Positions 4,721 through 22,739 of a stretch of 23,248 nt of DNA are shown here, piece by piece. Position numbers and translations under genes: made by a program. Source of the stretch: a virus; the IMG/VR virus record IMGVR_UViG_3300008952_000314, positions 1-23,248 of that record; one strand, given 5' to 3'. The notes under the pieces are model-generated. The model ran no database searches, was not told the origin of the DNA, and saw nothing but the letters and a program-made list of their open reading frames with translations. Positions within the stretch are counted from its first letter, which is position 1, and every line of letters starts with the position of its first letter.

Positions 4721-6530
4721 TGATCTTGCAAGTGACGGAAATCAAATGAGCATCGCCCCAAGCATGACCATCCGAGACTATCAGGCCAAGTGCGCTGCCA
4801 ACGTCGTCAAGACGTGGGAAGACAGCGACCGAACGCTGATCGTCATGCCAACCGGAACCGGCAAGACGGTCACGTTCTGGACGGTGATCGACGAATACCA
4901 CCGACGCACCGGCCGCCGCGTGCTGATCATCGCTCATCGGGAAGAGTTGATCTATCAGGCCGCCAACAAGGGCAAGCAGTTCTACGATTATGACTGCGAT
5001 ATTGAAATGGCGTCGTCTCGCGCCGACACGAACACATTCTATCACCAGTCGCCTGTCGTCGTCGCCAGCGTGCAAACGCTCAATAGCGGCAAGGCGTGTC
5101 CGCAGTGTGAACGTCGCGTGCAGATGGTGCTCGAGAATCACAAAGGCGAGCATCCAGGCGTAGAACTTGGCTGTCCTAAGTGCATCCAAGGCCGCATTCG
5201 GCGGATGCAGCGATTCAATCAGGACGATTTCGGTCTGGTCGTCATCGACGAGGCTCACCATGCTACCGCGAACAGCTATCAAATCGTCCTCGACTACTTC
5301 GGCAGTGACGCGAAGGTCTTGGGCGTCACAGCAACGCCAGATCGGCACGACGAAGAATCGCTCGGCCAGATCTTTCAGGATGTGTCGTTCGACTACGAAC
5401 TACCTGACGCGATCAAGGACGGCTGGCTGGTCTCGATCGAGCAGCAGTTTGTTGAGGTTGATGGGCTGGACCTATCATCCTGCCGAAAGAACAAAGATGG
5501 CGATCTGCAAGACAAAGACGTTGCGAACGCTATGCGTGTACTCAAACAGGAAGGCGAACTACACAAGATCGTTGATCCGACGATAGAACTTGCAGGTGAG
5601 CGGCCGACGCTCGTGTTTGCGGCGAGCGTAGACCACGCAGAATCGATGGCCGAGATCTTCAACCGGCATCGCAAGTCGTCGGCTGAGGTGTTGCACGGTG
5701 GCACTGACAAGGAAGTCCGCAAGGAAACGCTAGAGCGGTTCGCGCGGGGCGAGTTTCAATACCTCTGCAACTGTGCATTGTTCCTTGAAGGATTCGACGA
5801 GCCAACCATCGGCTGCGTTGCCGTCGCTCGGCCAACAGCAAGCCGCGCCTTGTACGCTCAGATAGTTGGTAGGGGCACGCGGACTCTGTCGGGTGTGATT
5901 GACCATCTCGACACGCCTGCGATCCGCAGGACCGCAATCAGCGAATCAGACAAGCCTGCGGTCCTGGTGCTCGATTACGTTGGCAACTCAGGGTCACACA
6001 AGTTGATAACAACGGCGGACATCCTTGGTGGTAAAGAATCAGACCGTGTCGTTGCGAAGGCGACGGAGATCGCGAAAGACAACGCCAATAAAGGCATGCC
6101 ACCGATCGACATGGAGGCAGCTCTCGATGAAGCACGCCGACAGGTCGAGGAAGAGGAAGCCAAGGCCAAACGCAAGCACGTCGTCGCTAAGGCATCGTTC
6201 CGAACCAAGACGGTCAACCCGTTCGACATCTTCGACATTCGACCTGCACGCGAACCGGGATGGCACAAGGGGCGAGCACCTAGCCAGCGGCAGAAGGCGG
6301 CGCTACTCAAGTTTGGCGTCGATGAGAAGACAGTCGCGGGCGCGTCGTTCTCTGAGGCTAGTCAAATGCTCGACGGGCTGGTCAGCCGAATCAAGCAAAA
6401 CAAATGCACATTGAAGCAGGCGAAGATTCTACGGCGCCAGGGGTTTGGCGTTGACTGCACAATGCAAGAAGCGAGCGCGACGATCGATCGAATTGCTCGT
6501 TCTGGTTGGACTCTACGAGGTGACAAATGA
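4692..6530 (+). CDS. Superfamily II DNA/RNA helicase with zinc-ribbon insertion
   Basis: About 612 aa. Motifs in order: Q-like RDYQ (28-31), Walker A PTGTGKT (53-59), Ia IIAHREEL, Ib VASVQTL, DEAH box (186-189), motif III TATP (213-216), motif V region FLEGFDEP and motif VI QIVGRGTR (about 390-397). This resembles the DEAD/DEAH-box UvsW/Irc3-like phage helicases that remodel forks and recombination intermediates. Between Ib and II a four-cysteine ribbon is inserted (CPQC at 136-139, CPKC at 161-164). The C-terminus holds two similar helical modules (PSQRQKAALLKFGVD...; CTLKQAKILRRQGFGVD...), a tail I associate with phage helicases. ATG 4692 overlaps the previous gene by 29 bases; ATG 4746 would drop 18 unconserved residues and is an equal alternative. 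Confidence 0.9.
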   Translation: MNNSPIIAANDLASDGNQMSIAPSMTIRDYQAKCAANVVKTWEDSDRTLIVMPTGTGKTVTFWTVIDEYHRRTGRRVLIIAHREELIYQAANKGKQFYDYDCDIEMASSRADTNTFYHQSPVVVASVQTLNSGKACPQCERRVQMVLENHKGEHPGVELGCPKCIQGRIRRMQRFNQDDFGLVVIDEAHHATANSYQIVLDYFGSDAKVLGVTATPDRHDEESLGQIFQDVSFDYELPDAIKDGWLVSIEQQFVEVDGLDLSSCRKNKDGDLQDKDVANAMRVLKQEGELHKIVDPTIELAGERPTLVFAASVDHAESMAEIFNRHRKSSAEVLHGGTDKEVRKETLERFARGEFQYLCNCALFLEGFDEPTIGCVAVARPTASRALYAQIVGRGTRTLSGVIDHLDTPAIRRTAISESDKPAVLVLDYVGNSGSHKLITTADILGGKESDRVVAKATEIAKDNANKGMPPIDMEAALDEARRQVEEEEAKAKRKHVVAKASFRTKTVNPFDIFDIRPAREPGWHKGRAPSQRQKAALLKFGVDEKTVAGASFSEASQMLDGLVSRIKQNKCTLKQAKILRRQGFGVDCTMQEASATIDRIARSGWTLRGDK

Positions 6531-6814
6531 TCGCAGAGGCGAGAAGGGTTTACGAGGTTAAGGCAGTCGAAACAGAGGGATTCGTGAATACGTTCGTCTT
6601 CACTGTCGAAGGCAAAGAAGGGCTGTGGCGTCAAATCAAGCGAGAGGGGCGCCAAGGCATCAGGACGGCGGTTGAGGGCGCAGCTGTTGCGGTGCTCGAC
6701 GAATACAAGCTCATCGAGCTGGTTCGCTGGTGCACGCTCGAGAACCTACTCAGCAAACGAGCTGCACTGGACGTGATCCCAGTCGATGCGGAAGGCGAAC
6801 CGGTGACGCTATGA
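6527..6814 (+). CDS. Hypothetical helicase-linked protein, 95 aa
   Basis: It starts ATGA-overlapped with the helicase stop; the end of the helicase gene supplies the ribosome site (GAGGTGAC). The N-terminal part alternates strands (RRVYEVKAVET, NTFVFTVEGKEGLWRQI). A helical second half follows, with a single cysteine in RWCTLENLLSKR. No motif is recognised. Gene order and coupling suggest co-expression with the helicase, perhaps as a small accessory factor, which is speculation. It overlaps the next start (ATGA). Confidence 0.65.
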   Translation: MIAEARRVYEVKAVETEGFVNTFVFTVEGKEGLWRQIKREGRQGIRTAVEGAAVAVLDEYKLIELVRWCTLENLLSKRAALDVIPVDAEGEPVTL

Positions 6815-6924
6815 ACGAAAAAACAGAAGTCCGTTTGATGGCAAGCCAAACCGACCATCTGAGTGGCCGGTTGCTTCGCGAGTTTTCTATCTGGATTGAT
6901 GGTTATATGCAAGCTAGATCTTAG
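6811..6924 (+). CDS. Small hypothetical protein, 37 aa
   Basis: ATG 6811 overlaps the preceding stop in the ATGA style used throughout this operon. The 37-residue product (MNEKTEVRLMASQTDHLSGR...) is charged with a short aromatic C-terminal part (FSIWIDGYMQ). No family is recognised. It is the last gene before a structured non-coding gap, so it may end the operon. The main evidence is translational coupling; a truncation remnant of a longer protein is also possible. Confidence 0.45.
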   Translation: MNEKTEVRLMASQTDHLSGRLLREFSIWIDGYMQARS

Positions 6925-7233
6925 TTCGTCGGCCGCTCGGTCTTCAATTTCCATCGTATGGAAGTCGAGCAAATGTTCCGCCGAGCGGCCGACTGAGGAC
7001 ATAGGGCGACCAATTTGCCCACACGGTTCAACGGTAACGCTACCGAATGGCTGAGGCTAACAAAGGCGTTACGACAACTCCGGTTTACGTCCCCGGTCGG
7101 CCCGGCTGTGAGTAGCGAAAGCGAAGGCAGTAACGGACGAGGCGAGATGCCTTGCTGAAAGACGTAGTCGGTGCCGAGGGGCCGTTTGTTCGGTCGAATG
7201 CGAGGCGTTGTATCGCGGCGTGGGAGGGGGAAG
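6925..7233. other. Structured gap of about 300 bases, no confident gene
   Basis: No frame here has a convincing ribosome site. Short possibilities are a 12-codon frame at 6958, a 22-codon frame at 7047 (MAEANKGVTTTP...) and a 16-codon GTG frame at 7109; none is convincing. The left half holds a strong nested dyad (6928-6993), and a CGGTA/TACCG dyad lies near 7032-7045. The longest frames in this region are on the minus strand and have no family signal. The gap separates the helicase operon from the replication genes, so promoter, origin or small-RNA functions are possible. Confidence 0.5.
6928..6993. repeat. Nested inverted repeat, 13-bp outer and 6-bp inner stems
   Basis: GTCGGCCGCTCGG (6928-6940) is the exact reverse complement of CCGAGCGGCCGAC (6981-6993). 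Inside, TTCCAT (6949-6954) and ATGGAA (6958-6963) form a perfect hairpin around CGT, with extra partial pairing on both flanks. It lies four bases after the last stop of the helicase operon. There is no following T-run. It could be an mRNA-end protecting hairpin, a small RNA or an origin dyad. Confidence 0.6.
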
Positions 7234-7662
7234 GTGCGTAACGGCATGGATGGCAAAGCGTGGGAGGGATACCCACACAACATTGAGGCGGAAGTGTACG
7301 TGCTGGCTGCGGTGCTGGTGTCGCCAGAACCCGATCCCGTGTTTGAGTCAGTTAGCGGTAGAGAGTTCTTCATTCGGTTTCACGGTTGGCTCTTCGACAC
7401 CTCCAAGAAAGCGATCAGATCACGGCGGAAGTGCAAACATCCGGTTGAACACATCCTCAGAGAGAAGGCGTTTGTAAGGTCGCGTTTCGGTTTGGATCTT
7501 GAACGCGAATTGCGAGATCTAGGGCGCGAAGTTGCGCAGGGCAGCGTTTTATGGTGGCACGGCAGTTACTACGGCTGGGAAGTGAGACGACTAGCGGCGG
7601 CGAGAAAACGAATCCAGCAGGCAGAATCAGAAATCAGGGCAGCATGGGACGCGACAACGTAA
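7234..7662 (+). CDS. DnaB N-terminal-domain-like protein without helicase domain
   Basis: A 142-aa product. I choose GTG 7234 because GGAGG (7223-7227) lies six bases upstream; ATG 7246, in frame, is the alternative. The core PHNIEAEVYVLAAVLVSPEP followed by a helix and GREFFIRFHGWLFDTSKKAI matches the pattern of the DnaB helicase N-terminal domain (P-x-x-x-E-A-E-x-x-V-L-G-A-x-L ... F-x-x-x-x-H-x-x-I-F-x-A). This helical domain mediates primase and loader contacts. No RecA-like motor follows, so it cannot be a helicase. It may act as an adaptor or decoy for the host replisome. The next gene resembles a replisome organiser, consistent with a replication role. Confidence 0.55.
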   Translation: MRNGMDGKAWEGYPHNIEAEVYVLAAVLVSPEPDPVFESVSGREFFIRFHGWLFDTSKKAIRSRRKCKHPVEHILREKAFVRSRFGLDLERELRDLGREVAQGSVLWWHGSYYGWEVRRLAAARKRIQQAESEIRAAWDATT

Positions 7663-7753
7663 CTTTCATCGTGAGGCGAGCAATGGCGGAAGCATCGAGC
7701 GAGGCGAGTTTATGGAGTGGATAGGAATCGATCAGTAACTGAGGCACGGACGG

Positions 7754-8716
7754 ATGAAAGCCGGAACGGAATCGAAGATCAAGTTCAAGCGGTTCAAGCG
7801 GCGCCTGAAGCTACCGCATTGGCAGGCCGTTGGGATACTTGAGGCGATCTGGCAGCTGACCGCCCATTCAGCCCCAGAAGGCGATATTGGACGCCACAGC
7901 AACGAAGATATCGCGGCGTCAATCGAGTACGACGGCGACGAGGACGAACTGGTTTCGGCCTTGATTGATAGCGGATGGCTGGACGCTTGCGAGGTGCATC
8001 GATTGGTCGTTCACGATTGGTCTGAGCACGCTCCAAACTACGTTAAAGGCAACATTCAGCGGCACGGAAAGCAATTTATTAAGGCTTCCCCAGGGGAGCC
8101 TCCTAAGGAGCCTCCTAAGGAGCCTCCTAGGGAACCTCCCCAGGGGATACTCCCACCAAGCCTAGTCAAGCCTAGTCAAGCCAAGCCTAGTCAAGCCAAG
8201 CCTAGTCAAGTCAATGACTCTGTCAAAACGGCTGCCGCCGTCAGGGGGGTGACTCCAGAAGATTTCATTTCTCGCTGGAATCACTTTGTGAAAGACAAGC
8301 CCTCTCTGGCGAAGGTACTCAAGCTCACGGACGAACGGCGCAAGAAACTCAAGATCCGCCTCAAGGATCCTGATTGGTTCAACGCTTTCAAACTCGCGCT
8401 CAATCGCTTGCCTCTGCCGACCAGCGAAGGGAGCACCTGGCAGCCGACACTCGATTGGCTGATACGAAACGAAAGCAATGTGTATCGAATCTCGGAGGGC
8501 GAATTCGGATGGCGAGCCAAGGACGACCCAGCGCGGCAGAGGCTGGAAACGCACAGGACGAAGTTGATAACCCAAGAGCACGAACGGCAATTGAAGCAAG
8601 AGCAGGTGGAGCACAGACAGAACGCGAAATCAACGCACAACGCCATCGGGAATATCTTAGAAGCGACGGATGGAGGCGACGAAAGCGATGGCGAGAAAAG
8701 TCTGCTGTTTGGGTAG
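7754..8716 (+). CDS. Phage replisome-organiser / replication initiation-like protein
   Basis: A 320-aa protein. Residues 20-105 look like a winged helix (HWQAVGILEAIWQLTA..., NEDIAASIEYDGDEDELVSA, GWLD, VVHDWSEHA), the N-terminal type seen in phage replication proteins. A low-complexity linker of EPPK and KPSQA repeats (about 115-152) follows. A second domain comes next (about 165-250: FISRWNHFV, LTDERRKKLKIRL, FKLALNRLPLP, WQPTLDWLIRN) of the kind found in DnaT/organiser-like proteins that recruit host helicase, ending in a charged coiled tail. Family knowledge suggests origin binding and helicase loading. Its last 208 bases also encode, in another frame, the start of the HNH gene. The short EPPK repeats are DNA-level tandem repeats. 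Confidence 0.7.
   Translation: MKAGTESKIKFKRFKRRLKLPHWQAVGILEAIWQLTAHSAPEGDIGRHSNEDIAASIEYDGDEDELVSALIDSGWLDACEVHRLVVHDWSEHAPNYVKGNIQRHGKQFIKASPGEPPKEPPKEPPREPPQGILPPSLVKPSQAKPSQAKPSQVNDSVKTAAAVRGVTPEDFISRWNHFVKDKPSLAKVLKLTDERRKKLKIRLKDPDWFNAFKLALNRLPLPTSEGSTWQPTLDWLIRNESNVYRISEGEFGWRAKDDPARQRLETHRTKLITQEHERQLKQEQVEHRQNAKSTHNAIGNILEATDGGDESDGEKSLLFG
8096..8210 (+). repeat. Two adjacent short tandem-repeat tracts in the replication gene
   Basis: A 12-bp unit GAGCCTCCTAAG occurs four times with slight decay (8096-8143). It is flanked by CCCCAGGGGA copies at 8088-8097 and 8138-8147. A second tract (8161-8210) has CCTAGTCAAG four times in a 10- to 15-bp spacing. They encode EPPK and KPSQA linker repeats. 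Near-identity at the DNA level points to recent slippage; short repeats inside replication genes often double as the phage origin. Confidence 0.75.
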
Positions 8717-9045
8717 GTCGCTCGTTTGTTTGTGAATGGTGCGGGACGTTGCAACCGAGATCGAAACCGATGGGGACGATGTTCAAGGCGTCTGAATTCA
8801 TCACGGACTCACGCGGCCAGTCGTCGCACAATTTGAACATTCACCACATCGACTACGACCGAATTGGACAAGAGCGATTTGGCGACTTGATTGTTATCTG
8901 TGCTGATTGCCACGAGTATCTTCACGAGCGGATCGAACGGATGCGGAAGGGTGGCAAACGAACAGCCCGCAAAGTCATGGACCGAATAAAGCCGGTGATG
9001 GTTCGGCGGTTGTTGGCGATACATGAATCATGGAGGACTAAATGA
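8509..9045 (+). CDS. HNH-type nuclease-like protein, overprinted start
   Basis: A 178-aa product if started at ATG 8509, ten bases after GGAGG (8494-8498). Conserved parts: EYLRSDGWRRRKRWRE (typical helix before HNH zinc knuckle), C75-x2-C78, an H-H-I-D motif at 112-115 (NIHHIDYD), and C131-x2-C134-H with H139 (CADCHEYLH), giving a beta-beta-alpha metal HNH fold with structural zinc. There is no in-frame start between 8512 and about 8769, so the conserved N-terminal helix forces the start to lie inside the replication gene, a 208-base out-of-frame overlap. The first 40 residues are low complexity. Phage HNH proteins near replication genes can be nicking or homing enzymes; the role here is unknown. 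It ends in HESWRTK, shared with a remnant at 10075-10098. Confidence 0.75.
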   Translation: MASQGRPSAAEAGNAQDEVDNPRARTAIEARAGGAQTEREINAQRHREYLRSDGWRRRKRWREKSAVWVGRSFVCEWCGTLQPRSKPMGTMFKASEFITDSRGQSSHNLNIHHIDYDRIGQERFGDLIVICADCHEYLHERIERMRKGGKRTARKVMDRIKPVMVRRLLAIHESWRTK

Positions 9046-9064
9046 GTAACGAATTGCGGTTACT
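9022..9064 (+). repeat. 43-bp junction direct repeat, copy 1 (before methylase)
   Basis: This 43-bp segment matches 10075-10117 with only two differences (T/C at 9039, A/G at 9041). It covers the last codons of the HNH gene (HESWRT), the ribosome site GGAGGA, and the first eight codons of the methylase (MSNELRLL). It lies precisely over a gene-gene junction, with unrelated sequence on both sides. Confidence 0.95.
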
Positions 9065-9905
9065 CGCGCCATGGTTCGGCAGCAAGCGAAACCTGGCTAA
9101 GAATATCGTTGAGGAAATGGGCCAGCATTCGGCGTATTGGGAGCCGATGTGCGGCTCAATGGCCGTCCTGCTTTCGAAGCCGAAATGCTCGATGGAGACG
9201 GTAAACGACCTCAACGCCGACCTGGTAAACCTCGCCCGGGTGATCAAGGACGAGACCGAAGGGCCGCGGCTATACCGCCAACTTCGCCGAATGATCACGT
9301 CGGACGAGTTGTTTCGGGAATCCGCCTTGGTCGTCAAGGAAAGCGAGTTTGAGCCGACAATCGAGCGAGCTTTTCACTACTTCGTTTTCTGCTGGATGGG
9401 CCGAAATGGCGACTCGGGGACGACGAAAGTAGGCTACTCGTTCTGTCGTCGATTCACAAAGAACGGCGGACACGCTGCTAAGCGATTCTCGTCCGTAGTT
9501 CAGACAATACCGGAGTTCCGCCGGCGGCTTCGCGAAGTGACGATCCTGCAGGCGAATGTGTTCGAGCTGCTTGAGCGGATCGAGGATTCGCCTGGTGTCG
9601 TGATTTACTGCGATCCGCCCTACGTGACGAAGGGTGCCAAGTATGTGCATGACTTTGCGGCCGAAGATCACGGGCGAATGGCTGAGCAGCTTCGCCGATT
9701 CAAAAAGACACGGGTGATCGTGAGCTATTACGACCATCCGCTCGTGGATGAACTCTACGCCGGCTGGACCAAGCGGCATCTCAAGGCGACGAAGGCGATG
9801 GTGAATCAGGGCCGTCGCGACAAAGGCGGTTCGGTGGCGGCGCCCGAGGTGTTGTTGATCAACGGTCCCAGTCTGGTCGTCAAAGACGAGAGTGCGTTGT
9901 TCTAA
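9042..9905 (+). CDS. D12-class N6-adenine DNA methyltransferase (Dam-like)
   Basis: A 287-aa protein, ATG 9042 overlapping the HNH stop (ATGA) with GGAGGA upstream. The hallmarks of the Dam/D12 family are present: LAPWFGSKRNLAKNIV at residues 8-23 (SAM-binding motif), EPMCGSMAV at 34-42, NDLNADL at 55-61 and the catalytic DPPY at 191-194. It transfers a methyl group from SAM to adenine N6, usually at a short palindrome such as GATC. Orphan phage methylases protect phage DNA from host restriction or mimic host methylation. No cognate restriction gene is adjacent. The gene sits between two copies of a 43-bp junction repeat, suggesting it was acquired as a cassette. The target sequence cannot be derived from the sequence. 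Confidence 0.92.
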   Translation: MSNELRLLAPWFGSKRNLAKNIVEEMGQHSAYWEPMCGSMAVLLSKPKCSMETVNDLNADLVNLARVIKDETEGPRLYRQLRRMITSDELFRESALVVKESEFEPTIERAFHYFVFCWMGRNGDSGTTKVGYSFCRRFTKNGGHAAKRFSSVVQTIPEFRRRLREVTILQANVFELLERIEDSPGVVIYCDPPYVTKGAKYVHDFAAEDHGRMAEQLRRFKKTRVIVSYYDHPLVDELYAGWTKRHLKATKAMVNQGRRDKGGSVAAPEVLLINGPSLVVKDESALF

Positions 9906-9928
9906 CTAAGAAATCGGGAGACAAATCG

Positions 9929-9991
9929 GTGTTTACAGACTTAATACTCATTGCCTCTGCGTTGTCGGGCTGGATAGCCAGTTGTCACTAG
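9929..9991 (+). CDS. Possible 20-aa membrane microprotein
   Basis: GTG 9929 follows a good GGGAG (9916-9920) by eight bases. It would encode a 20-residue hydrophobic peptide (MFTDLILIASALSGWIASCH), enough for a short membrane span. It lies in the otherwise gene-poor stretch after the methylase. A competing frame covers 9982-10098. The evidence is ribosome site plus hydrophobicity only. Confidence 0.33.
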   Translation: MFTDLILIASALSGWIASCH

Positions 9992-10098
9992 AGGAACGAA
10001 CGAACTGCGTCGGGATCCAACTTACGGTCGAAGAGAACGTCCCAACGGAAGTTCGCGTGCGATTCACTGGAAAGCATGAATCATGGAGGACCAGATGA
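9982..10098 (+). CDS. Short frame ending in HESWRTR; probable remnant of a swapped-out gene
   Basis: An open frame runs through 9910-10098 and ends with the codons HESWRTR just before the zinc-ribbon gene. The first usable start is TTG 9982 (38 aa) with only a weak ribosome site. Its C-terminal seven residues match the C-terminus of the HNH protein because of the 43-bp repeat, while the rest is unrelated (EERTNCVGIQLTVEENVPTE). It could be a small real gene or the remnant of a longer gene that once occupied the same slot. Confidence 0.3.
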   Translation: MSLEERTNCVGIQLTVEENVPTEVRVRFTGKHESWRTR

Positions 10099-10117
10099 GT
10101 AACGAATTGCGGTTACT
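10075..10117 (+). repeat. 43-bp junction direct repeat, copy 2 (before zinc-ribbon gene)
   Basis: It matches 9022-9064 at 41 of 43 bases. Again it covers an HESWRT gene end, the ribosome site GGAGGA and an MSNELRLL gene start. The two copies are 1053 bp apart and bracket the methylase and the microprotein region. Confidence 0.95.
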
Positions 10118-10475
10118 GAGTATGCAGCAAGTAGCTATCCGTTGCGAGTCACGCGACCGATGCCCGAACCCCGATTGCAAATCACACGCAGGCGGGGAGT
10201 TCGGTGAATTCTCTCGCGACCCGCAGACGCGATTCTGTCTCAATTGCAATTGTGTCATCCCGTCGCCTGACGAGATTTGGAATCTAGAGACAGGCGAAGC
10301 GGTCAAGCATCAGGCGAACTGGTCACAGTGCGACGAGTTGAAGCGATCGACGCAGGTTGGCTGCGGTGTGACGCTTCGCGGCGAGGACGGCACGCGGTTG
10401 GGGTTGGCCGTTGAGATTGCGGAGGTGAGCCAGGGCCATCGTCGCAAAGTGAAAGGCACAGACAGGAACCCGTGA
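10095..10475 (+). CDS. Zinc-ribbon protein, 126 aa, with chimeric N-terminus
   Basis: ATG 10095 lies four bases after GGAGGA; an in-frame ATG at 10083 is upstream of that site and less likely. The first eight residues (MSNELRLL) are identical to the methylase start because of the 43-bp repeat. The core has cysteines at C17, C23, C28 and C48, C51, C53 (RCPNPDC ... RFCLNCNC), probably two zinc knuckles. This arrangement is like small phage zinc-ribbon proteins of unknown function. The C-terminal half is polar without a recognised fold. It is coupled to the PAPS-reductase-like gene, whose start overlaps this stop. Confidence 0.7.
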   Translation: MSNELRLLSMQQVAIRCESRDRCPNPDCKSHAGGEFGEFSRDPQTRFCLNCNCVIPSPDEIWNLETGEAVKHQANWSQCDELKRSTQVGCGVTLRGEDGTRLGLAVEIAEVSQGHRRKVKGTDRNP

Positions 10476-11407
10476 TGAAAGCTACAGGCACCAAAGCAGA
10501 CTTACTGAGTTGGGCATGGAAGATCGAGCGACCGAAATCGCCGTCTGTGGATTACCTGATCGCAGAGTCGCACGCGATCATCGACCGGGCGTTTGGAGAG
10601 CACCTTGCGGTCGCAATGCTTCCACTCTACTCGGGCGGCAACGACTCTGGCTGTAGCGCCCATGTCGCGAGCCTGCACCCGAAGTTCGCGGGAACGGTCT
10701 ACACGATCAACACACGGACGGGGGCATTCAAGACTAAGTTACACCAGCGGCGAGTCTGCAAACTGTTCGGCTGGAAACAGGAAGTGCGACGTTCTCCTAG
10801 TCGCAGCGACAACATGGAGGAATTCGTAAGGAACAAGGGGCTGCCCGGCCCAGGAATGCACACGGTGATTTTCTCGCGGCTCAAGCAACGAGTCTTGGAA
10901 TGCTGGACGAAAGAGCACAAAGACGCAGCTCGGCCGGTCGCGTTTATGTCTGGCGTGAGAGTAGCAGAGTCAACGCGACGGCTTGGCTACGCGAGTGAAA
11001 TTCAACGCGGATCGTATATTCGAAACGATGGCAGGATCAGCAACCCCTATCAGCTATGGGTTGCCCCGATCTTGCATTGGACAACTGATGACCAGCGCCG
11101 ATACCGCAAGGCGTTCGACATTCCACTCAATCCATTCACTGGAACGCTGGACATGAGCCTAGAGTGCGGCTGTGGATGCTATGCCGATCGTAGCGACAAG
11201 GACGGACCGTGCGACGAACGGGAGTTGATTCGCCAGTACGCGCCCGATGTTTCAAAGAAGATCGACATCTTGCAGCGTATCGCGAGGGAACACGGTCATC
11301 ATGCCGAATGGGGTTGTGCGCCACCCAACGATCCGAAGCATGATGGGTTCGTCCCACCGACGTGCCAATCGTGCGCGTCGCGGTCGTTGTTTGCGAAGGA
11401 GTCATAA
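10475..11407 (+). CDS. Phosphoadenosine phosphosulfate reductase family protein (PP-loop)
   Basis: A 310-aa protein, start ATG 10475, AGGAA six bases upstream (GTG 10472 is immediately before). The PP-loop motif SGGNDS (53-58) sits after a hydrophobic strand (AVAMLPLYSGGNDS), the ATP-pyrophosphatase signature of the PAPS reductase/adenine nucleotide alpha-hydrolase family. Further support: GTVYTINTRTG, the helix HQRRVCKLFGW, and FMSGVRVAESTRR, which resembles the R-x-x-E-S region of phage and DndC-like members. A cysteine-rich C-terminus (LECGCGC, CQSC, about residues 225-305) could carry an iron-sulfur or zinc site. Phage homologues are common, but their substrates are unknown; sulfur modification of DNA or tRNA is a family-based possibility, not shown. 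Confidence 0.85.
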   Translation: MKATGTKADLLSWAWKIERPKSPSVDYLIAESHAIIDRAFGEHLAVAMLPLYSGGNDSGCSAHVASLHPKFAGTVYTINTRTGAFKTKLHQRRVCKLFGWKQEVRRSPSRSDNMEEFVRNKGLPGPGMHTVIFSRLKQRVLECWTKEHKDAARPVAFMSGVRVAESTRRLGYASEIQRGSYIRNDGRISNPYQLWVAPILHWTTDDQRRYRKAFDIPLNPFTGTLDMSLECGCGCYADRSDKDGPCDERELIRQYAPDVSKKIDILQRIAREHGHHAEWGCAPPNDPKHDGFVPPTCQSCASRSLFAKES

Positions 11408-11886
11408 TGATTCTCGCGATCGATCCAGGCACAACCGAATCGGCCTACGTCCTATACGACGCTGGCGAATTGATCGCGTTTGATAAGGTCCGCAACGACG
11501 TGATGCTAGATCGGATGTTCGAGTTGATGGACGAGCACAAAGACCTGGATCATCTCGCAATCGAGCATGTCGCTTCCTACGGCATGGCAGTCGGCAAAGA
11601 AGTATTCGCAACCTGCGTTTGGACTGGGCGATTCATCCAGCAATGGGGCGGACCCTTCACGGCGATCTACCGCGCGGACGTGAAGATGCACCTTTGCCAT
11701 TCGATGCGGGCGAAGGACGCGAACATCAGACAGGCGATCATCGACCGTTATCCGGCGACGGGCGGCGGCAAGGTGCCGCAGGTTGGAACTAAGTCGAAGC
11801 CAGGACCGCTCTACGGTGTCAGCCTAGATGTTTGGGCAGCGTTGGGGGTTGCGATCACATACGACGAAACGCGAGGAGATAAATAG
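11407..11886 (+). CDS. RuvC-like Holliday junction resolvase (RNase H fold)
   Basis: A 159-aa protein starting at ATG 11407, which overlaps the previous stop TAA. It opens with ILAIDPGTTESAYVLYD (catalytic D6, the RuvC D-P-G motif). It has AIEHV with E53 and a C-terminal SLDVWAALGVA with D141, matching the acidic active-site layout of RuvC. Family members cut four-way junctions in recombination or before packaging. It fits with the annealing protein and helicase upstream as a phage recombination set. The last ten codons (ITYDETRGDK) recur in diverged form at 12143-12175, after another small gene, as part of a junction repeat. Confidence 0.85.
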   Translation: MILAIDPGTTESAYVLYDAGELIAFDKVRNDVMLDRMFELMDEHKDLDHLAIEHVASYGMAVGKEVFATCVWTGRFIQQWGGPFTAIYRADVKMHLCHSMRAKDANIRQAIIDRYPATGGGKVPQVGTKSKPGPLYGVSLDVWAALGVAITYDETRGDK

Positions 11887-11892
11887 CGATGG
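11854..11892 (+). repeat. 39-bp junction repeat A, copy 1 (RuvC tail / next start)
   Basis: It covers the last RuvC codons, the ribosome site GAGGAG, the spacer AAATAGCG and ATGG. It aligns without gaps to 12143-12181 at 32 of 39 bases. The differences in the coding part are conservative (Y to F, R to Q, D to V), as expected for homologous coding ends from related phages. Confidence 0.85.
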
Positions 11893-12119
11893 ATGACAAC
11901 GATGTGGGTTGTCCCAGGCTTTGCGATCTATGCCACAAGCCAGTTGAATTGAACTGGGACTATGCATGGTGCCGCCAGTGTGGAGAAGTCGGCGTTTGTC
12001 ATCACGGCAATCGGCCGCACGACTGCAATGATTGCATGATCGAGTCTGATTTGGCGTTTGACTCCCAGAGGGAGTGCCTTGCAACACAACGAAAAATCGA
12101 GCGACCAGACGATGACTAG
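11889..12119 (+). CDS. Double zinc-ribbon small protein, 76 aa
   Basis: It starts at ATG 11889 with GAGGAG upstream, supplied by junction repeat A. Nine cysteine or histidine ligands are visible: C8, C12, C15, C28, C31, C37, H38, C46 and C49. They are arranged as LCDLC ... WCRQC followed by VCHHG ... DCNDC, likely two small zinc sites. I recall a C-x-H-G ... D-C-N-D-C motif from small phage proteins of unknown function. The rest is polar. It occupies the slot between the RuvC gene and a truncated copy of the HTH gene start. Confidence 0.7.
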   Translation: MDDNDVGCPRLCDLCHKPVELNWDYAWCRQCGEVGVCHHGNRPHDCNDCMIESDLAFDSQRECLATQRKIERPDDD

Positions 12120-12145
12120 CCTATCTAGACGCGGCGCCGAGAATC
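12111..12145 (+). repeat. 35-bp junction repeat B, copy 1
   Basis: It matches 12457-12491 with a single mismatch (position 12132). It spans the end of the zinc-ribbon gene (…GAC-TAG) and the first 11 codons of an HTH-gene start (MTSLSRRGAEN). Its 3' edge runs directly into repeat A copy 2, overlapping it by three bases (ATC at 12143-12145). Confidence 0.92.
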
Positions 12146-12153
12146 ACGTTTGA
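12112..12153 (+). pseudogene. Truncated copy of the HTH gene start
   Basis: ATG 12112 begins MTSLSRRGAEN, identical to the first 11 residues of the intact HTH gene at 12458, then runs into HV and a TGA at 12151. The break coincides with the point where the sequence switches to a RuvC-tail-like segment. I read it as the remnant left when a second cargo cassette was joined in. Confidence 0.75.
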
Positions 12154-12181
12154 CGAAACGCAGGGAGTGAAATAGCGATGG
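12143..12181 (+). repeat. 39-bp junction repeat A, copy 2 (diverged RuvC tail)
   Basis: In the RuvC reading frame this reads ITFDETQGVK then stop, followed by GGGAG, AAATAGCG and ATGG. It is an orphan C-terminus of a RuvC-like gene with no body upstream. It provides the ribosome site for the gene at 12178. Confidence 0.85.
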
Positions 12182-12465
12182 GTACATGGAGCAAGGATGA
12201 ATACGACGAGATCAACGAAACAGGTTCGATCAACTTCAACGGATACGCGATTGGTGAATGTGGAAGATCGATCACGGTCGCGGAGGGATGGGACGACTCA
12301 ACGCCACGTCGGCACATCCTTCTGACGTGCGAGGGAAGGTCGAACGGAACCGAGTACAGCATGGACGTAGACAAGGCCGAAGCATTGGGGTTGCTAATAC
12401 TCTCGGCAGCGCGGGGGATGCGATGGATGTCTGCACGATTAGACGAGGACGAGGCCGATGACTAG
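12178..12465 (+). CDS. Hypothetical protein in second cargo slot, 95 aa
   Basis: ATG 12178 follows GGGAG from junction repeat A copy 2. The product is acidic, with strands GYAIGECGRSITVAEGW and RRHILLTCEGRSNGTEYSMD and a C-terminal helix AEALGLLILSAARGMRWM. No family is recognised and it has no similarity to the zinc-ribbon protein in the first slot. It ends overlapping the start of the HTH gene (12458). Both small genes end in acidic DD-stop codons that are part of repeat B. Confidence 0.65.
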   Translation: MGTWSKDEYDEINETGSINFNGYAIGECGRSITVAEGWDDSTPRRHILLTCEGRSNGTEYSMDVDKAEALGLLILSAARGMRWMSARLDEDEADD

Positions 12466-12491
12466 CCTATCTAGACGAGGCGCCGAGAATC
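12457..12491 (+). repeat. 35-bp junction repeat B, copy 2
   Basis: It matches 12111-12145 at 34 of 35 bases. It spans the end of the 95-aa gene and the start of the intact HTH gene. The copies are 346 bp apart, while the A copies are 289 bp apart, so this is not a simple tandem duplication of one unit. Confidence 0.92.
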
Positions 12492-12652
12492 CAAACGCGA
12501 AACTGACCGAGGCTGCTATCCCGAGGATTCGGCAGAGGTTGGCGAACGGCGAAACGCTTAAGGTTATCGCGGCACAGTTCGGCGTCTCGTTCCAGACGAT
12601 TTCTAAAATTAAAAACAACCGACGCTGGTTTCATGTGCCGAGGCAGTCGTGA
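12458..12652 (+). CDS. Small helix-turn-helix DNA-binding protein, 64 aa
   Basis: It starts at ATG 12458, overlapping the previous gene. NPNAKLTEAAIPRIRQRLAN, then ETLKVIAAQFGVSFQTISKI and KNNRRWFHV, is a classic resolvase/NUMOD-type helix-turn-helix. It matches the stand-alone HTH found in phage genomes and at the C-terminus of HNH homing endonucleases. The turn (F-G-V-S) and recognition helix (QTISKIKNNR) are intact. It is likely a small regulator or a remnant of a homing enzyme. Its start is duplicated at 12112 as a truncated copy. Confidence 0.8.
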   Translation: MTSLSRRGAENPNAKLTEAAIPRIRQRLANGETLKVIAAQFGVSFQTISKIKNNRRWFHVPRQS

Positions 12653-12675
12653 TCTAGCCAACGAAAGGATGCACC

Positions 12676-13338
12676 GTGAGACATTATCGATGGATGATTC
12701 GTCGCGACATGATCGAAGTGCTCGAGATCGAGCGGCAGTGCTTCGGGTTTCCCTGGTCGGAGGAGCATTTCGTATACTGCCTGCAACAGCGAAACACGAT
12801 CGGGATGGTCGTGGAAGTCGATAAGAGAGTGCGAGCGTTTGTTATCTACGAACTACATCCATCACGCATCGAAGTGCTGAACCTGGCCGTTGAGAGACAT
12901 CACCAGAGGATCGGACTCGGGGCAATGCTGATCGATAAACTCAAGCTCAAGCTGAACCCGAACCCGAATAGGCGAGGCGAACTGGCGGTCAACGTCGCTG
13001 AGTTCAACACACCGGCGCAACTCTTCCTGAAATCACAAGGGCTCAGTTGTATCCGAATCGATAAGAATGCGTGGATAACTCCAGACATCGATGCGTATCG
13101 TTTCGTCTATTCGGCGCGACCCAAGCAGAAGTCAGTGCCGGTCGATGATCTTCGCATCGGTCACGTCTACGAAGTGTCGCTGCGAACTGGTGAAGTTGTA
13201 GTGGGCGAGTTCTTGGGGTTCGTCAGGCATCGTAAGGGAATGCCGTTTCGCATTCGTCTTGCCGGTCAGGCGAGACGCTCGCGGATTGCAGTTGCTTTAA
13301 TCACGCTAATTCGGGAACTTAAAAAGCAAGACGCTTAG
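12676..13338 (+). CDS. RimI-like GNAT acetyltransferase with extra C-terminal domain
   Basis: A 220-aa protein, GTG 12676 after AAAGGA. Residues 1-150 form a GNAT domain: EIERQCFGFPWSEEHF (the F-P-W-S motif of RimI), beta strands GMVVEVDKRVRAFVIYEL, and the acetyl-CoA pyrophosphate motif Q-R-I-G-L-G at 77-82. RimI acetylates the N-terminus of ribosomal protein S18. A phage copy could acetylate host or phage proteins. Beyond residue 150 a separate beta-rich segment (VPVDDLRIGHVYEVSLRTGE ... GEFLGFVRHRKGMPFRIRL) looks like a small barrel and is not part of classical RimI. It could give target or nucleic-acid specificity. Confidence 0.82.
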   Translation: MRHYRWMIRRDMIEVLEIERQCFGFPWSEEHFVYCLQQRNTIGMVVEVDKRVRAFVIYELHPSRIEVLNLAVERHHQRIGLGAMLIDKLKLKLNPNPNRRGELAVNVAEFNTPAQLFLKSQGLSCIRIDKNAWITPDIDAYRFVYSARPKQKSVPVDDLRIGHVYEVSLRTGEVVVGEFLGFVRHRKGMPFRIRLAGQARRSRIAVALITLIRELKKQDA

Positions 13339-13363
13339 GCACTTCAATCATGGACGGGATGAC

Positions 13364-13654
13364 ATGGGGCGCGTCACAATACGAGGGAAGCGATGGATGC
13401 TTGTGTTTCGTCACGGCATGACGGCACGCGGTGACGTTGATGCTCCGCATCGACAGAATAAGCAGATCCGCATTCGGGCCGACCTGAAGGACGAAGAACG
13501 GCTCGAGGTTATAATTCACGAGATCACTCATGCCGCTATCTGGGACGCAAGCGAGGAAACCGTAACGGAGTTTGCGAGCGATTTAGCACGGATACTCTAT
13601 CGGCACTTGGGATATCGAGAGGGCAACGACAATGGCACGGAAGCAGAAACTTGA
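13364..13654 (+). CDS. Small HExxH zinc metallopeptidase-like protein, 96 aa
   Basis: ATG 13364 follows a GGGA-containing ribosome site. VIIHEITHAA (residues 49-58) gives the zincin H-E-x-x-H motif at H52-E53-H56. A downstream SEETVTEFASDLARIL provides candidate third ligands (E64, E65 or E69). The size and the E-E-x-V-x-E-F helix resemble minimal SprT-like or ImmA-like phage peptidases, which cleave DNA-bound proteins or repressors. The substrate is unknown. At 96 aa it is near the minimum for the fold. It overlaps the next gene by 23 bases. Confidence 0.75.
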   Translation: MGRVTIRGKRWMLVFRHGMTARGDVDAPHRQNKQIRIRADLKDEERLEVIIHEITHAAIWDASEETVTEFASDLARILYRHLGYREGNDNGTEAET

Positions 13655-13886
13655 CGACTACGAGTCAAAGACGACTGGGTATGCTAACTGGTTCGCTCGA
13701 CTCACCAAGGAAGAGCAGGAGATCGTTGAATCAGAGTCTGACGCTTACCTTCGAGGCGAATATCCGAAGCTAACGTCAGTGTCGGCTTTATCTCGGGCGA
13801 TGCGGTCTGCTGGTGTCATTCCTCCAGACGTGACTGAACCGACATTCAGGCGATGGTTCAACGCGAGGGGACGGGCGGATGGCTAA
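13632..13886 (+). CDS. Hypothetical protein, 84 aa
   Basis: ATG 13632 lies inside the end of the peptidase gene; GAGGGCAACG gives a weak ribosome site. The N-terminal 40 residues are charged helix (EEQEIVESESDAYLRGEYPK). The second half (SVSALSRAMRSAGVIPPDVTEP then TFRRWFNARGR) resembles a winged-helix or HTH module, as in small regulators or small terminase N-termini, but no family is certain. It overlaps the metallophosphoesterase start by eight bases. Confidence 0.65.
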   Translation: MARKQKLDDYESKTTGYANWFARLTKEEQEIVESESDAYLRGEYPKLTSVSALSRAMRSAGVIPPDVTEPTFRRWFNARGRADG

Positions 13887-14823
13887 GCGACTAAAGGCGC
13901 AGCCAGACTCGAAAGAGTTAGTGTCGCTTCGGAAGAAGAACGCTGAACTACTGGCGATAATCGACCAGATGAATGAATCGGCGGCCGAGCAGAGACGGGC
14001 GAAGTTCACGATCCCCAGAGGCCGAGCCACTTCACCACGAGGGACGTATATCCGTTTAGTGATCCCAGACACACATGGGACATTCATTGATAAGGCGGCC
14101 GTGCGTGCGATGCTTCAGGATGCGGTTCAGTATGGTGTTCGCGAGGTCGTGTTACTGGGTGATCACGTTGACTGCGGCGGGTTCCTCGCTCAACATCACA
14201 CGATGGGCTATGTCGCGGAAGCTGATTACAGTTACACCGATGACATCACCGCGGCTAATGTGTTTCTCGACGAGGTGCAGAAGGCGTGCCCCGATGCGGC
14301 GACGTATTACATCTGCGGGAATCACGAGCGACGGGTTGAGCGATGGTGCCTGACTGCGGCACTGTCCCGCTCGATCGACGCCAGTTTGCTGCTGAAATCT
14401 CTCGATCCGCGTTACCTGCTCCATCTAGAAGAGCGGGGCATCAAATACATCCACACGCTCGACGACTCGCTGAGTGGCGGCCAGACGCGGAACACGCTCG
14501 AACTCGGCAAGTGCTTGTTCCTGCATGGGTATTCGCACGCCATGCACGCAACACAGAAGACGCTCAACGACCTGGCTCGCAACGCTGTCGTCGGTCACAT
14601 TCACCGGCGCCAGTCGTTCTCGAGGACTACGCACGACAGCGAGATATCGGCCTGGTGCCCAGGTTGCCTATGTGAGCGGCGTAAATACTACATGCACGCT
14701 CGCCCAACGCATCACGCGCACGGTTATGGGTTGCAGATCGTGAACAAATCAGGCGAGTTCTTGCATATCAATGTGCCGATAATCGACGGCAAGAGCTACC
14801 TGTCGGCGCTCAAATCGGCTTGA
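13879..14823 (+). CDS. Calcineurin-like metallophosphoesterase
   Basis: A 314-aa protein. A short coiled coil (residues 10-45) precedes the phosphoesterase domain. All motifs are present: D64-x-H66 (PDTHG), GDHVD with D95, GNHE at 147-150 (N148, H149), a histidine in FLHGYSH (H216), and G-H-x-H at 239-242. These bind two metals and hydrolyse phosphodiesters or monoesters. Phage members act on nucleotides, protein phosphates or DNA ends; the target here is unknown. It is the last gene before a strong terminator, so it closes the replication/accessory unit. The start overlaps the preceding gene. Confidence 0.9.
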   Translation: MAKRLKAQPDSKELVSLRKKNAELLAIIDQMNESAAEQRRAKFTIPRGRATSPRGTYIRLVIPDTHGTFIDKAAVRAMLQDAVQYGVREVVLLGDHVDCGGFLAQHHTMGYVAEADYSYTDDITAANVFLDEVQKACPDAATYYICGNHERRVERWCLTAALSRSIDASLLLKSLDPRYLLHLEERGIKYIHTLDDSLSGGQTRNTLELGKCLFLHGYSHAMHATQKTLNDLARNAVVGHIHRRQSFSRTTHDSEISAWCPGCLCERRKYYMHARPTHHAHGYGLQIVNKSGEFLHINVPIIDGKSYLSALKSA

Positions 14824-14902
14824 CCTAAAGGGATTGGCAATAGAGAATTGAAAACATAACACAACCCGGTCGCCGCTCGGTCTGATCCGCTGATACGGCT
14901 TG

Positions 14903-14969
14903 CCCAAGAAACTGACGGCATATGTAGGTGCTACATCACCTTGCGTATGCCGTTTTTTTGTTTCTTGGG
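14903..14969 (+). terminator. Strong nested intrinsic terminator
   Basis: CCCAAGAAAC (14903-14912) pairs with GTTTCTTGGG (14960-14969). Inside, ACGGCATA (14915-14922) pairs with TATGCCGT (14946-14953), directly followed by a 7-base T run (14953-14959). Innermost, ATGTAG (14922-14927) pairs with CTACAT (14931-14936). A further CCCGGTC (14865-14871) can pair with GACCGGG (14969-14975). The middle stem plus T run is a textbook Rho-independent terminator separating the early/middle unit from the exported/virion unit. The T-run end pairs into the outer stem, which could make it switchable. Confidence 0.8.
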
Positions 14970-15008
14970 ACCGGGCGATTCTCTCTTTTGGATCATGGAG
15001 AAAATCAG

Positions 15009-15206
15009 ATGAAACTGCGACTCCTGACTACAGCTCTTCGGTTCGTTCTGAGCCAAATCGATCCGCAGACGGTCAAGGAGTTGATCGACGATCTGATTGA
15101 TAAAGTTGAGGACAAGTATGCCGACCAGCCGGTTGTGATGCAGGGCGCAGCGATGGTGCGTAATGTGTTCTCGATCCCTGACGACATCGGTGGCGACGAA
15201 GACTGA
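15009..15206 (+). CDS. Conserved small phage protein, 65 aa
   Basis: ATG 15009, GGAGA eight bases upstream. It is the first gene after the terminator. It is helical and acidic (SQIDPQTVKELIDDLIDKVEDKY) and ends in VRNVFSIPDDIGGDED. I recall short phage proteins with the same plan (I-D-x-x-I-D-x-x-E-D ... F-x-I-P-D-D) near structural or lysis genes, with unknown role. The promoter for this unit is not obvious; TTGGCA near 14834 is a weak candidate. The stop overlaps the next ATG. Confidence 0.7.
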   Translation: MKLRLLTTALRFVLSQIDPQTVKELIDDLIDKVEDKYADQPVVMQGAAMVRNVFSIPDDIGGDED

Positions 15207-15934
15207 TGCGAACCGCACTAGTCGCTGGTCTGGTCCTTCTCGGGTTCTGTGCCGCGACGGCCAATACGGCACCACCATCTGAAGCACGCACAAAACTCCA
15301 AGGCGCCGCACTTGAGGGGCGTCTTGAGGTCGTTGAGCACGAGCCGATAGTCATCGCGGCGAATATCGCAGTGCCCGAAGGTTGGTCCGCAATGTTTGAT
15401 TGGGACTTGCAGCGACCCGCCAAAGGCCGAGAGACCGACAACGGCCGAACGCTCCACGTTTGGGCGCCGCCCGGCGAATATGAGATTGAGCTGGAAGTGT
15501 TCCTAGCGAGGTACGACGAAGCGACGAAGCAGGTTCAGTTTCGCAAAGACACCTCGGTAACGGCATTGGTGGTCAAGCCGAGCAAACCCAGGCCGCCAGA
15601 TCCACCGGACCCTACGCCAGGTCGCCCCTCGGCCGTCCTGATCCTCCGCGACCAAGAGAACGACACGGCGACCGAGGCGGCGGCACTACAAGACCTGCGG
15701 CAGAGCGAGCTATTTCGGGGCGGGACACCGAAGCTGCTGATCCTGAGCACAGACGCGGAGACACCGGACGGCAAACCGGACCCGATATCACAGAAGTACC
15801 TCGCACAAGTCCCGCAAGGCAGCGAGTACCCATATTTCTTCGCGGTGGACGCTTCCGATCACGTCGTTGACTCGGGCGAGGTGCCTGACGATCCGGCCGA
15901 ACTAATCAAGCGAATTCAGGCGAGGTTGAGGTGA
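15206..15934 (+). CDS. Exported thioredoxin-fold-like protein, 242 aa
   Basis: It begins with a clear signal peptide (MRTALVAGLVLLGFCAATAN, cleavage near A-x-A/N). Residues 35-110 are a beta-sandwich (EHEPIVIAANIAVPEGWSAM, WAPPGEYEIELEVF) like a PKD/Ig domain. After a proline-rich linker (RPPDPPDPTPGRP) comes a domain of about 100 residues (SAVLILRDQEN ... KLLILSTDAETPDG ... YFFAVDASDHVVDSG) with a thioredoxin-like order of elements but no C-x-x-C. Similar two-part exported proteins are common in planctomycete genomes. It may act in the periplasm during lysis or as a host-derived cargo. No enzymatic residue set is seen. Confidence 0.72.
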   Translation: MRTALVAGLVLLGFCAATANTAPPSEARTKLQGAALEGRLEVVEHEPIVIAANIAVPEGWSAMFDWDLQRPAKGRETDNGRTLHVWAPPGEYEIELEVFLARYDEATKQVQFRKDTSVTALVVKPSKPRPPDPPDPTPGRPSAVLILRDQENDTATEAAALQDLRQSELFRGGTPKLLILSTDAETPDGKPDPISQKYLAQVPQGSEYPYFFAVDASDHVVDSGEVPDDPAELIKRIQARLR

Positions 15935-16143
15935 GACTACAGCGAAAACAAAGGCGACTCGCTCGGCAATTGGCGACCGAGTTCATCGAAGACAACCCCG
16001 GCGCGTCCGATAAAGAAGTGGCGGCCGCCGTTGGTCTGGAGATGGAAGAGGAATACGGCATGGCGATTGATCCGATCATGCTGATGGGATGGATCAAGCT
16101 AATCCTCGAACTGCTCAAACTCTGGCGAGAACGTAAAGACTGA
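15931..16143 (+). CDS. Small phage protein with hydrophobic C-terminal helix, 70 aa
   Basis: GTG 15931 overlaps the previous stop, with GCGAGG upstream. A basic N-terminus (MRLQRKQRRLARQL) and helical middle (NPGASDKEVAAAVGLEM) lead to a hydrophobic segment (MAIDPIMLMGWIKLILELLKLW) that is amphipathic or membrane-associated, then a charged end RERKD. The layout is compatible with a holin-like or peripheral membrane protein. It directly precedes the cysteine peptidase gene (TGATG overlap), which supports a lysis-related guess, but no family is recognised. Confidence 0.65.
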   Translation: MRLQRKQRRLARQLATEFIEDNPGASDKEVAAAVGLEMEEEYGMAIDPIMLMGWIKLILELLKLWRERKD

Positions 16144-16946
16144 TGCCGATCGATCCGCGATTTATCGACCACGACCTGACGCCTCCCGAGGGTATGGCTA
16201 CCGGGCTGATCGAACAAGATGCCGAGTCATTCGCGGCTGGTGTGCTCTGTCAAGATATCGAGGCGACGGGGAACTTGATACCTCGTTCGCAGTGGGATGA
16301 TTGGGCGAATCGCCGCGAGCCGGCACTGCGAGCCTCGGTGAGAACGATCCTGAATCAGGGTCGAGAGGGCTCGTGCGTTGGCAATGCTTGCGTAGGTGCC
16401 GCGATGGTGTGCGGTGCGTTGCAGTATGGGTCAGACTGGCGGGAGCTATCCGCTATGTCACTCTATGAACGAATAGGGCGAACGGCCCAATCTGGTGCGA
16501 TGATTCCTGACGGGATCGCTGAACTGACAGACCGAGGCGCCCTGCCGCTCGACTCCCCAGCAAACCGGGACGAATTCGATCTTGTCTATCCGGCGACTGG
16601 ATTCAATCCGCGCCGACTTCGCAGACTCGACTGGGAACCGACCGCGAAGCTATTCCGAGCGACCGATATTTTGCGGATCAATACAGCAGATGGATTCTTC
16701 TCGGCACTGTGTCACGGCTGGCCTACGATCTATGGGCGACAGCAGCATTGCATCTACAGCGTGCTACCGAAGAAGTCTCGCGGCAAATGGTATTTCGGCT
16801 ATGCGAACAGTTGGGGTCAGTGGGGCGACGAACTCAACGACACCGTTGGCAAGGGGCTCGGCTGGGACTCAGAGCGTGTGATTTCGAATTGCGTGGGCTA
16901 TGCGGTCCGCGATGTGACACGACGGCCACGGATCGAAATGGAGTAG
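16143..16946 (+). CDS. Papain-like (C1 family) cysteine peptidase
   Basis: A 267-aa protein. The full papain active-site set is visible: oxyanion Q72 and nucleophile C78 in NQGREGSCVGNACVGA, general base H202 in RQQHCIYSVLP, and N222 in YANSWGQWGDE, the N-S-W-G motif. There is no signal peptide and no large pro-domain (the first 60 residues are short of a typical inhibitor pro-region). Phage C1 peptidases have been found in tail and lysis modules. Here it stands between a hydrophobic small protein and two exported/membrane small proteins, so I infer lysis or envelope penetration. Head maturation is an alternative, but the head genes are not next to it. Confidence 0.85.
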   Translation: MPIDPRFIDHDLTPPEGMATGLIEQDAESFAAGVLCQDIEATGNLIPRSQWDDWANRREPALRASVRTILNQGREGSCVGNACVGAAMVCGALQYGSDWRELSAMSLYERIGRTAQSGAMIPDGIAELTDRGALPLDSPANRDEFDLVYPATGFNPRRLRRLDWEPTAKLFRATDILRINTADGFFSALCHGWPTIYGRQQHCIYSVLPKKSRGKWYFGYANSWGQWGDELNDTVGKGLGWDSERVISNCVGYAVRDVTRRPRIEME

Positions 16947-16948
16947 CG

Positions 16949-17137
16949 ATGAAACTCGAAACGCTATTTGCAATCTGTTTGCTTCTGATCGCGGCACACT
17001 TCGCAACCGCCCAGCGCGACGACCCGCCACCGCGAACCAACGTTGGCGCCACGATCGACAAGGCGCTGCAGGACATCAAAACAATAAAGGCGGACGTGGC
17101 GAAGCTCAGGCAAGCTCGCTGCTGCTGCAAACACTAA
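16949..17137 (+). CDS. Small exported protein with C-terminal cysteine cluster, 62 aa
   Basis: ATG 16949 follows GGAGTAGC. A signal peptide (MKLETLFAICLLLIAAHFATA, likely cut before Q) is followed by a proline-rich piece (DDPPPRTN) and a short coiled helix (ATIDKALQDIKTIKADVAKLRQ), ending in CCCKH. No lipobox is clear. The size, export and coil recall outer-spanin-like partners, and the next gene is a TM-plus-coil protein as in inner spanins; this pairing is speculative. The triple cysteine could cross-link or bind metal. Confidence 0.62.
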   Translation: MKLETLFAICLLLIAAHFATAQRDDPPPRTNVGATIDKALQDIKTIKADVAKLRQARCCCKH

Positions 17138-17155
17138 AAGAGATCGGGCAGAGAC

Positions 17156-17374
17156 ATGGGCTCAGCAGAATGGATAGCGTTTGGCGTGTTCGCACTTGCG
17201 CTGATCAGCGGCATTGTGCATATCGTTTGGCTGCTGGCATCAATGAAGGCAACGCTTCAATCGCTGGTTAGGAGAGCTGAAGCGACGGACGTGAAAGTGA
17301 CTGAGCACGTCAAGGATTGCGACGAGGACAGGTTGCATCTGAATCATCGGGTCAGTCACCTTGAGGGCACATAA
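17156..17374 (+). CDS. Small membrane protein with coiled tail, 72 aa
   Basis: ATG 17156, with GAGATCGGGCAGAGAC upstream. One membrane span (about residues 5-29, WIAFGVFALALISGIVHIVW) precedes a charged helix (ATLQSLVRRAEATDVKVTEH ... RLHLNHRVSHLEG). This is the topology of inner spanins, XhlA-like proteins or pinholin partners. It follows the exported 62-aa protein and precedes the fibre genes, consistent with a lysis cassette. The stop overlaps the next start (TAATG). The precise function is undecided. Confidence 0.65.
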   Translation: MGSAEWIAFGVFALALISGIVHIVWLLASMKATLQSLVRRAEATDVKVTEHVKDCDEDRLHLNHRVSHLEGT

Positions 17375-18501: not shown

Positions 18502-18516
18502 CCTGGGGTAGGCAAT

Positions 18517-21586: not shown

Positions 21587-21595
21587 GGTGAAGAT

Positions 21596-21844: not shown

Positions 21845-21846
21845 CG

Positions 21847-22176: not shown

Positions 22177-22283
22177 GGCTGTCTCAAAATGGGACGCGAC
22201 CGGGGGGCCATCGGATTCTGGGGGCCGACGACTACCGAAGACCGTCCCAGACTCTCTAACTTTTTTCGCGAAACGAGGCCGAC
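22177..22283. other. G-rich spacer between HNH and TerS, candidate cos region
   Basis: No convincing gene (a 33-codon frame from 22190 lacks a ribosome site). It contains GGGGGCC twice (22203-22209 and 22220-22226), TGGGACG (22190-22196) inverted against CGTCCCA (22243-22249), the string GTCTCAAAATGGGAC near its start, and CTAACTTTTTTCGCG near its end. In many HK97-like phages a G-rich segment of this kind between the HNH and terS genes holds cos. The assignment is by position and general look only. Confidence 0.5.
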
Positions 22284-22731: not shown

Positions 22732-22739
22732 CGAAAAAC

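Follow-up and report, generated by a model that had tools for sequence, protein, structure and literature searches.

How two unrelated small genes come to stand one behind the other in a place that seems made for one is the question raised by a locus of an uncultured tailed phage, in which each gene is framed by pieces of the same two neighbours. We analysed the whole phage contig of 23,248 bp (hereafter the window), which encodes a terminase small subunit (22284-22706), a helicase, a replication protein and a RuvC-like resolvase; an 823-aa protein at 18517-20988, with repeated AVKADTAA-LxDTA-type stretches, is probably a tail fibre or a similar structural protein.

Two cargo genes between ruvC and an HTH gene

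The upstream neighbour (11407-11886, on the plus strand like the other features of the slots described here) is a RuvC-like Holliday junction resolvase gene, which falls within the phage Holliday junction resolvase family (phrog_1770, E 2.3e-20), has 141 tblastn relatives in viral contigs and ends in the tail ITYDETRGDK. It is followed by two genes, referred to here as cargos X1 and X2. Cargo X1 (11889-12119) encodes 76 aa and, from its richness in CxxC motifs, is probably zinc-binding; cargo X2 (12178-12465) encodes 95 aa. Alignment revealed that the bodies of the two proteins are unrelated, and the stop codon of both genes is the TAG contained in the overlapping HTH start (GATGACTAG), for X1 in a fossil copy of this start and for X2 in the resident one.

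Relatives of the cargos are scarce. A protein search of the phage collection with X1 and X2 returned none, and X2 has no relative in viral contigs or phages besides an identical contig described below. X1 matches no Pfam, NCBIfam or PHROG family at E 0.001 or better; its one relative, 56-61% identical, is located in L085 (2042-2254) behind a CsrA gene and in a different gene context, and X1 is a genuine family that therefore exists outside the ruvC-HTH slot. CsrA-like genes are present in both viruses of the X1 family (window 1300-1539; L085 1866-2045), the L085 relative of X1 following csrA directly. The predicted structures of both cargos are poor (pLDDT 47 for X1 and 60 for X2). The GC3 of X2 is 0.66, the same as in the neighbouring genes, and neither cargo stands out in composition as foreign.

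The downstream neighbour is a stand-alone DNA-binding (HTH) gene of 64 aa (12458-12652) that matches phrog_6156 (E 2.1e-7) and other HNH families; profile matches show that its protein resembles the C-terminal domain of HNH endonucleases of phages. Among its relatives (L087-L106), the majority lie within longer open frames and share the motif GxxNPNAKLTE. An HNH nuclease domain was sought in the gene and is absent, the DNA-binding part standing alone, and the sequence suggests a decayed endonuclease beside the slot. Scanning 11800-12700 for sigma-70-like promoters and plus-strand terminators revealed neither of them; by that scan the cargos lack the promoter and terminator of their own that characterise phage morons, and thus are not classical morons.

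Two direct repeats mark the borders of the cargos. Junction repeat A, which consists of a RuvC tail, a ribosome site and ATGG, aligns at 11854-11892 and 12143-12181 with 32/39 identical positions. The resident copy holds the last 10 ruvC codons, the SD GGAG and ATGG, while the fossil copy holds an orphan RuvC C-terminus (ITFDETQGVK-stop), the SD GGGAG and ATGG. Both copies retain the ribosome site: the predicted anti-SD pairing is -8.9 kcal/mol for X1 and -7.7 kcal/mol for X2, as compared to -2.2 kcal/mol for the fossil HTH start. Junction repeat B, made up of a cargo gene end and the HTH start, aligns at 12110-12145 (fossil copy) and 12456-12491 (resident copy) with 35/36 identical positions, and the single mismatch is synonymous (CGC/CGA). 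The fossil copy contains the end of X1 and the first 11 HTH codons, translates as MTSLSRRGAENHV-stop, and is cut inside the conserved family motif NPNAKLTE; it is thus a broken, truncated gene start. The fossil copies of repeats B and A abut at 12143-12145, where the last letters of the one and the first letters of the other are the same ATC, and the surplus HTH and RuvC ends occupy 12110-12175 as fossils.

This anatomy agrees with the initial annotation of the locus, which had proposed that two unrelated cargo genes of one slot stand in tandem between repeats A and B, that the middle junction joins a truncated HTH start to an orphan RuvC tail, and that the ribosome sites were kept: the repeats lie and read as it described them, both fossil translations hold, and the unrelated bodies of X1 and X2 and the neighbour fossils at the seam bear out the tandem. 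We depart from it on the nature of the fossil tail, said to differ from the resident one by conservative changes only. The differences are Y/F, R/Q and D/V together with one silent change, and D/V is not conservative. The F and Q of the fossil tail also occur at these positions in other RuvC relatives (ITFSETQ in L003 and ITYNETQ in L009).

Chance was assessed by shuffling the whole window 200 times with its dinucleotide content preserved and scoring the best direct repeat each time. The highest of these scores was 41.0 bits, as compared to 61.7 for junction B, 69.8 for a repeat at a second slot (below) and 40.1 for junction A; repeat A by itself is thus borderline in a whole-window search. 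The position of repeat A nevertheless makes a chance origin untenable: its copies lie 289 nt apart, and the fossil copy adjoins repeat B, stays in the RuvC frame as far as the stop codon and finishes with an SD followed by ATGG. Moreover, the core patterns of A and B each occur exactly twice in the window, and 0/100 shuffles gave two occurrences. The ATC at the seam carries less weight, since by calculation an overlap of at least 3 bp arises at a random join with a chance of ~5%, and it is therefore weak evidence for microhomology.

A second slot in the same genome and an independent pair

The strongest repeat of the window lies elsewhere and is an addition to the initial annotation, which omitted it. 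This repeat, J, is 43 nt long and aligns at 9022-9064 and 10075-10117 (41/43, E 5e-13). Its resident copy comprises an HNH gene tail (HESWRTK-stop), an SD and the start, MSNELRLL, of a Dam-type (D12) adenine methyltransferase gene (9042-9905; PF02086 E 5.4e-21, phrog_56 E 4.2e-61). Its fossil copy comprises an orphan HESWRTR-stop, an SD and MSNELRLL, which continues in frame into the gene that follows, the second cargo of this slot (10095-10475). The 126-aa product of that gene begins with the same eight residues as Dam and is otherwise unrelated to it, the alignment of the bodies being at shuffle level; there is a weak match to phrog_1477 in its C-terminal part. The HNH neighbour itself has a weak Pfam match (E 0.0013). 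The HNH-Dam slot is a one-sided form of the architecture found at ruvC-HTH. An open frame of 62 codons (9906-10098) lies between Dam and the second copy of J, and its last residues are the orphan HNH tail.

In another lineage, two RuvC relatives provide an independent before/after pair for the RuvC slot. In L009 (locus 3444-3773) a gene, Z, comes directly after RuvC. In L012 (locus 3453-4059) three elements separate RuvC from Z, namely, in order, Y (DUF6948), a low-complexity gene and an orphan RuvC tail; the DNA of the two is 77-82% identical over the longer aligned stretches. L012 carries a 38-nt repeat (36/38) around the start, and the orphan tail matches the resident tail of L009 at 27/30 positions, as compared to 20/30 for L012's own resident tail. 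The low-complexity gene beside the fossil may point to a more complex history. This gene (L012 3764-4006) is of the GYGDGSG repeat type and directly follows the DUF6948 gene; GYGDGSG-like repeats also occur near DUF6948 genes in L173, L175, L183 and L204.

A survey of 117 loci (694 kb) revealed strong repeats of the stacking kind only in the window and in L012, and a second survey, of 79 loci selected through DUF6948 (436 kb), revealed weaker or ambiguous cases only. L193 was considered as a third stacked phage and rejected: its two gene tails share further residues (TEKRCLE), and it may be a plain gene duplication. The start repeats of L113, L127, L145, L173 and L183 are weaker (24-37 nt) and were not counted.

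The parents of the stacked slot were sought in viral contigs with RuvC, X1, X2, HTH, a PAPS-reductase-like gene and gene 10095 as queries, and in genome contigs with X1 and RuvC. Neither set contained a relative with X1 or X2 alone between ruvC and HTH, and a DNA search of the phage collection gave short ruvC and chance matches only; neither parent has therefore been seen. The expectation that a relative would carry a single cargo and a RuvC tail like the fossil is thus borne out in another lineage, by L009 as compared to L012, but not for this phage.

Origin of the stacked slot

The best explanation of these observations, to which we assign a probability of roughly 0.6, is that an illegitimate join stacked two alternative cargos of a single ruvC-HTH slot. 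The ruvC-HTH interval would be a replaceable cargo slot in this phage lineage, whose occupant takes its ribosome site from the last ruvC codons and its TAG stop from the overlapping HTH start; because both sites lie in the ends of the neighbours, occupants could be exchanged without harm to either. A ruvC-X1-HTH genome would have been joined, 11 codons into HTH, to a ruvC-X2-HTH relative, 10 codons short of the end of the relative's ruvC, in a join that used at most 3 bp (ATC). A newcomer accompanied by the final codons of a related ruvC would carry its own ribosome site; each cargo would thus have kept its own, and the unused HTH and RuvC ends would have been left as fossils. One exchange would suffice, and both cargos would stay translatable. 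The anatomy, the unrelated cargo bodies, the preserved ribosome sites, the second slot and the L009/L012 pair are shown directly, and the last two strengthen the reading; we infer from them that each allele had a different genome as its source, in what order the events took place, and that X1 and X2 are both translated. A foreign origin of X2 is putative, X2 being without relatives. The copies of A differ at 7/39 positions and those of B at 1/36, and a single exchange therefore needs parents that differed much more at ruvC than at HTH. The stacked state is also predicted to be resolvable, recombination between the A copies yielding ruvC-X2-HTH and recombination between the B copies yielding ruvC-X1-HTH.

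An identical final anatomy would arise if the stretch from ruvC tail to HTH start had first been duplicated in tandem, with the join at ATC, and one copy had then been converted, via its A and B flanks, to the cargo of a relative. The near identity of the B copies (35/36) is what a duplication predicts, and the homology-driven exchange carried out by phage recombinases tolerates high divergence, with a minimum of ~30 bp for Red-beta (PMC3945230). This course needs two events instead of one, however, and does not avoid the second phage, since a donor with the other cargo is still required; we consider it possible but rather unlikely. The initial annotation had proposed an unequal exchange between two phages at ATC: the stacked alternative genes and the fossils at the seam speak for it, but its single step is inseparable from duplication followed by replacement. 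A different kind of explanation sees in the repeats conserved elements of translation start or regulation instead of traces of recombination, and takes its model from the SAS/ESAS elements of cluster K mycobacteriophages, which are 13 bp long, occur in 11-19 copies and lie just upstream of start codons (PMC3203893). The repeats here likewise lie just upstream of start codons, all three strong repeats of the window carry such a codon, and A and J also carry a strong SD. Unlike SAS, however, they are 36-43 nt long, and each core occurs exactly twice, far from the many copies that characterise SAS; A extends ~35 nt upstream of the start codon, over in-frame RuvC codons; an SD is missing from the fossil copy of B (-2.2 kcal/mol); and the RNA fold is not unusual (z 0.22 and -0.07). 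These data strongly disfavour a functional origin of the repeats.

The HTH gene could also be the remnant of an HNH homing endonuclease, in which case break repair would have copied neighbouring DNA and left duplicated ends as a side effect of homing. Such an account draws on the resemblance of the HTH protein to the C-terminal domain of HNH endonucleases and on the HNH gene adjoining the second slot, but it is highly improbable given that the HTH gene has no nuclease domain, that the HNH assignment at the second slot is the weak one noted above, and that no such gene was identified beside the L012 slot. Least probable of all is an assembly artefact. The window is a metagenomic virus contig, and two co-existing strains with different cargos would yield similar pieces that might be joined; yet the overlap at the seam is only 3 bp, far below the word length of an assembler and too short for it to join on, so that reads presumably crossed the seam. 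Moreover, a second IMG/VR contig, 3300007760_000096 (23,114 bp), has different ends and is identical to window 5708-23248 (17,541 bp), and thus through the whole region, although the two contigs may derive from related samples. A chimeric assembly is therefore unlikely.

Comparison with known routes of gene gain

Short conserved stretches at gene borders, the boundary sequences of lambdoid phages, guide the replacement of modules (discussed in PMC3029335). Boundary exchange of this kind swaps modules and, unlike the event proposed here, leaves no tandem alleles with truncated neighbours. T4-type phages reportedly carry mobile regulatory cassettes (PeSLs) that consist of a promoter and a stem-loop in intergenic DNA. 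The repeats of the window resemble PeSLs in being short repeated elements at gene borders that are associated with gene shuffling, but they consist of a coding tail and a ribosome site, and contain no promoter or same-strand terminator match.

Stacking of the kind proposed for this phage has already been described, the published precedent being the mycobacteriophages Island3 and Brujita. In Island3, gene 68 is a new gene without homologues that lies behind gene 67 and shares with it a 60-bp 3' end (18 codons); the closely related Brujita has this 3' end only once and lacks the new gene, and in that study a gain could not be distinguished from a loss (Pope et al. 2011, PMC3029335). As with Island3 gene 68, a copy of the 3' end of the upstream gene flanks the added gene in both slots of the window (A at 11854/12143; J at 9022/10075). 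Unlike in Island3, both neighbours of the ruvC-HTH slot left fossils, one being the tail of RuvC and the other the start of HTH; the repeat extends over the ribosome site and the start codon, two cargos are stacked, and the same genome holds a second slot. The close relative of Island3 marks that event as recent; no such relative was found for this phage, for which the analogue is the L009/L012 pair.

The gain of small genes in phages is mostly inferred from end states, whereas the seam described here can be read directly, with its fossil ends, its overlap and its ribosome sites. We put forward only tentatively, as a doubtful generalisation, that stacking is a general route by which phages acquire small genes, the unit being a ribosome site plus a gene, with the cut ~10 codons short of the upstream gene's end. 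Its instances would be the two slots of the window and the RuvC slot of L012; if the route were general, a new gene would be translated at once while the old one was kept, and the short repeats would allow the loss of either. The locus provides a concrete signature, in which copies of a gene tail, a ribosome site and a start stand on both sides of an unrelated gene; tallying it in phage genomes would allow an estimate of how frequently stacking takes place and is then resolved. The fossil tails of the two window slots and of L012 are all 7-10 codons long, a length that may result from selection on DNA compactness or from limits on where the break can fall.
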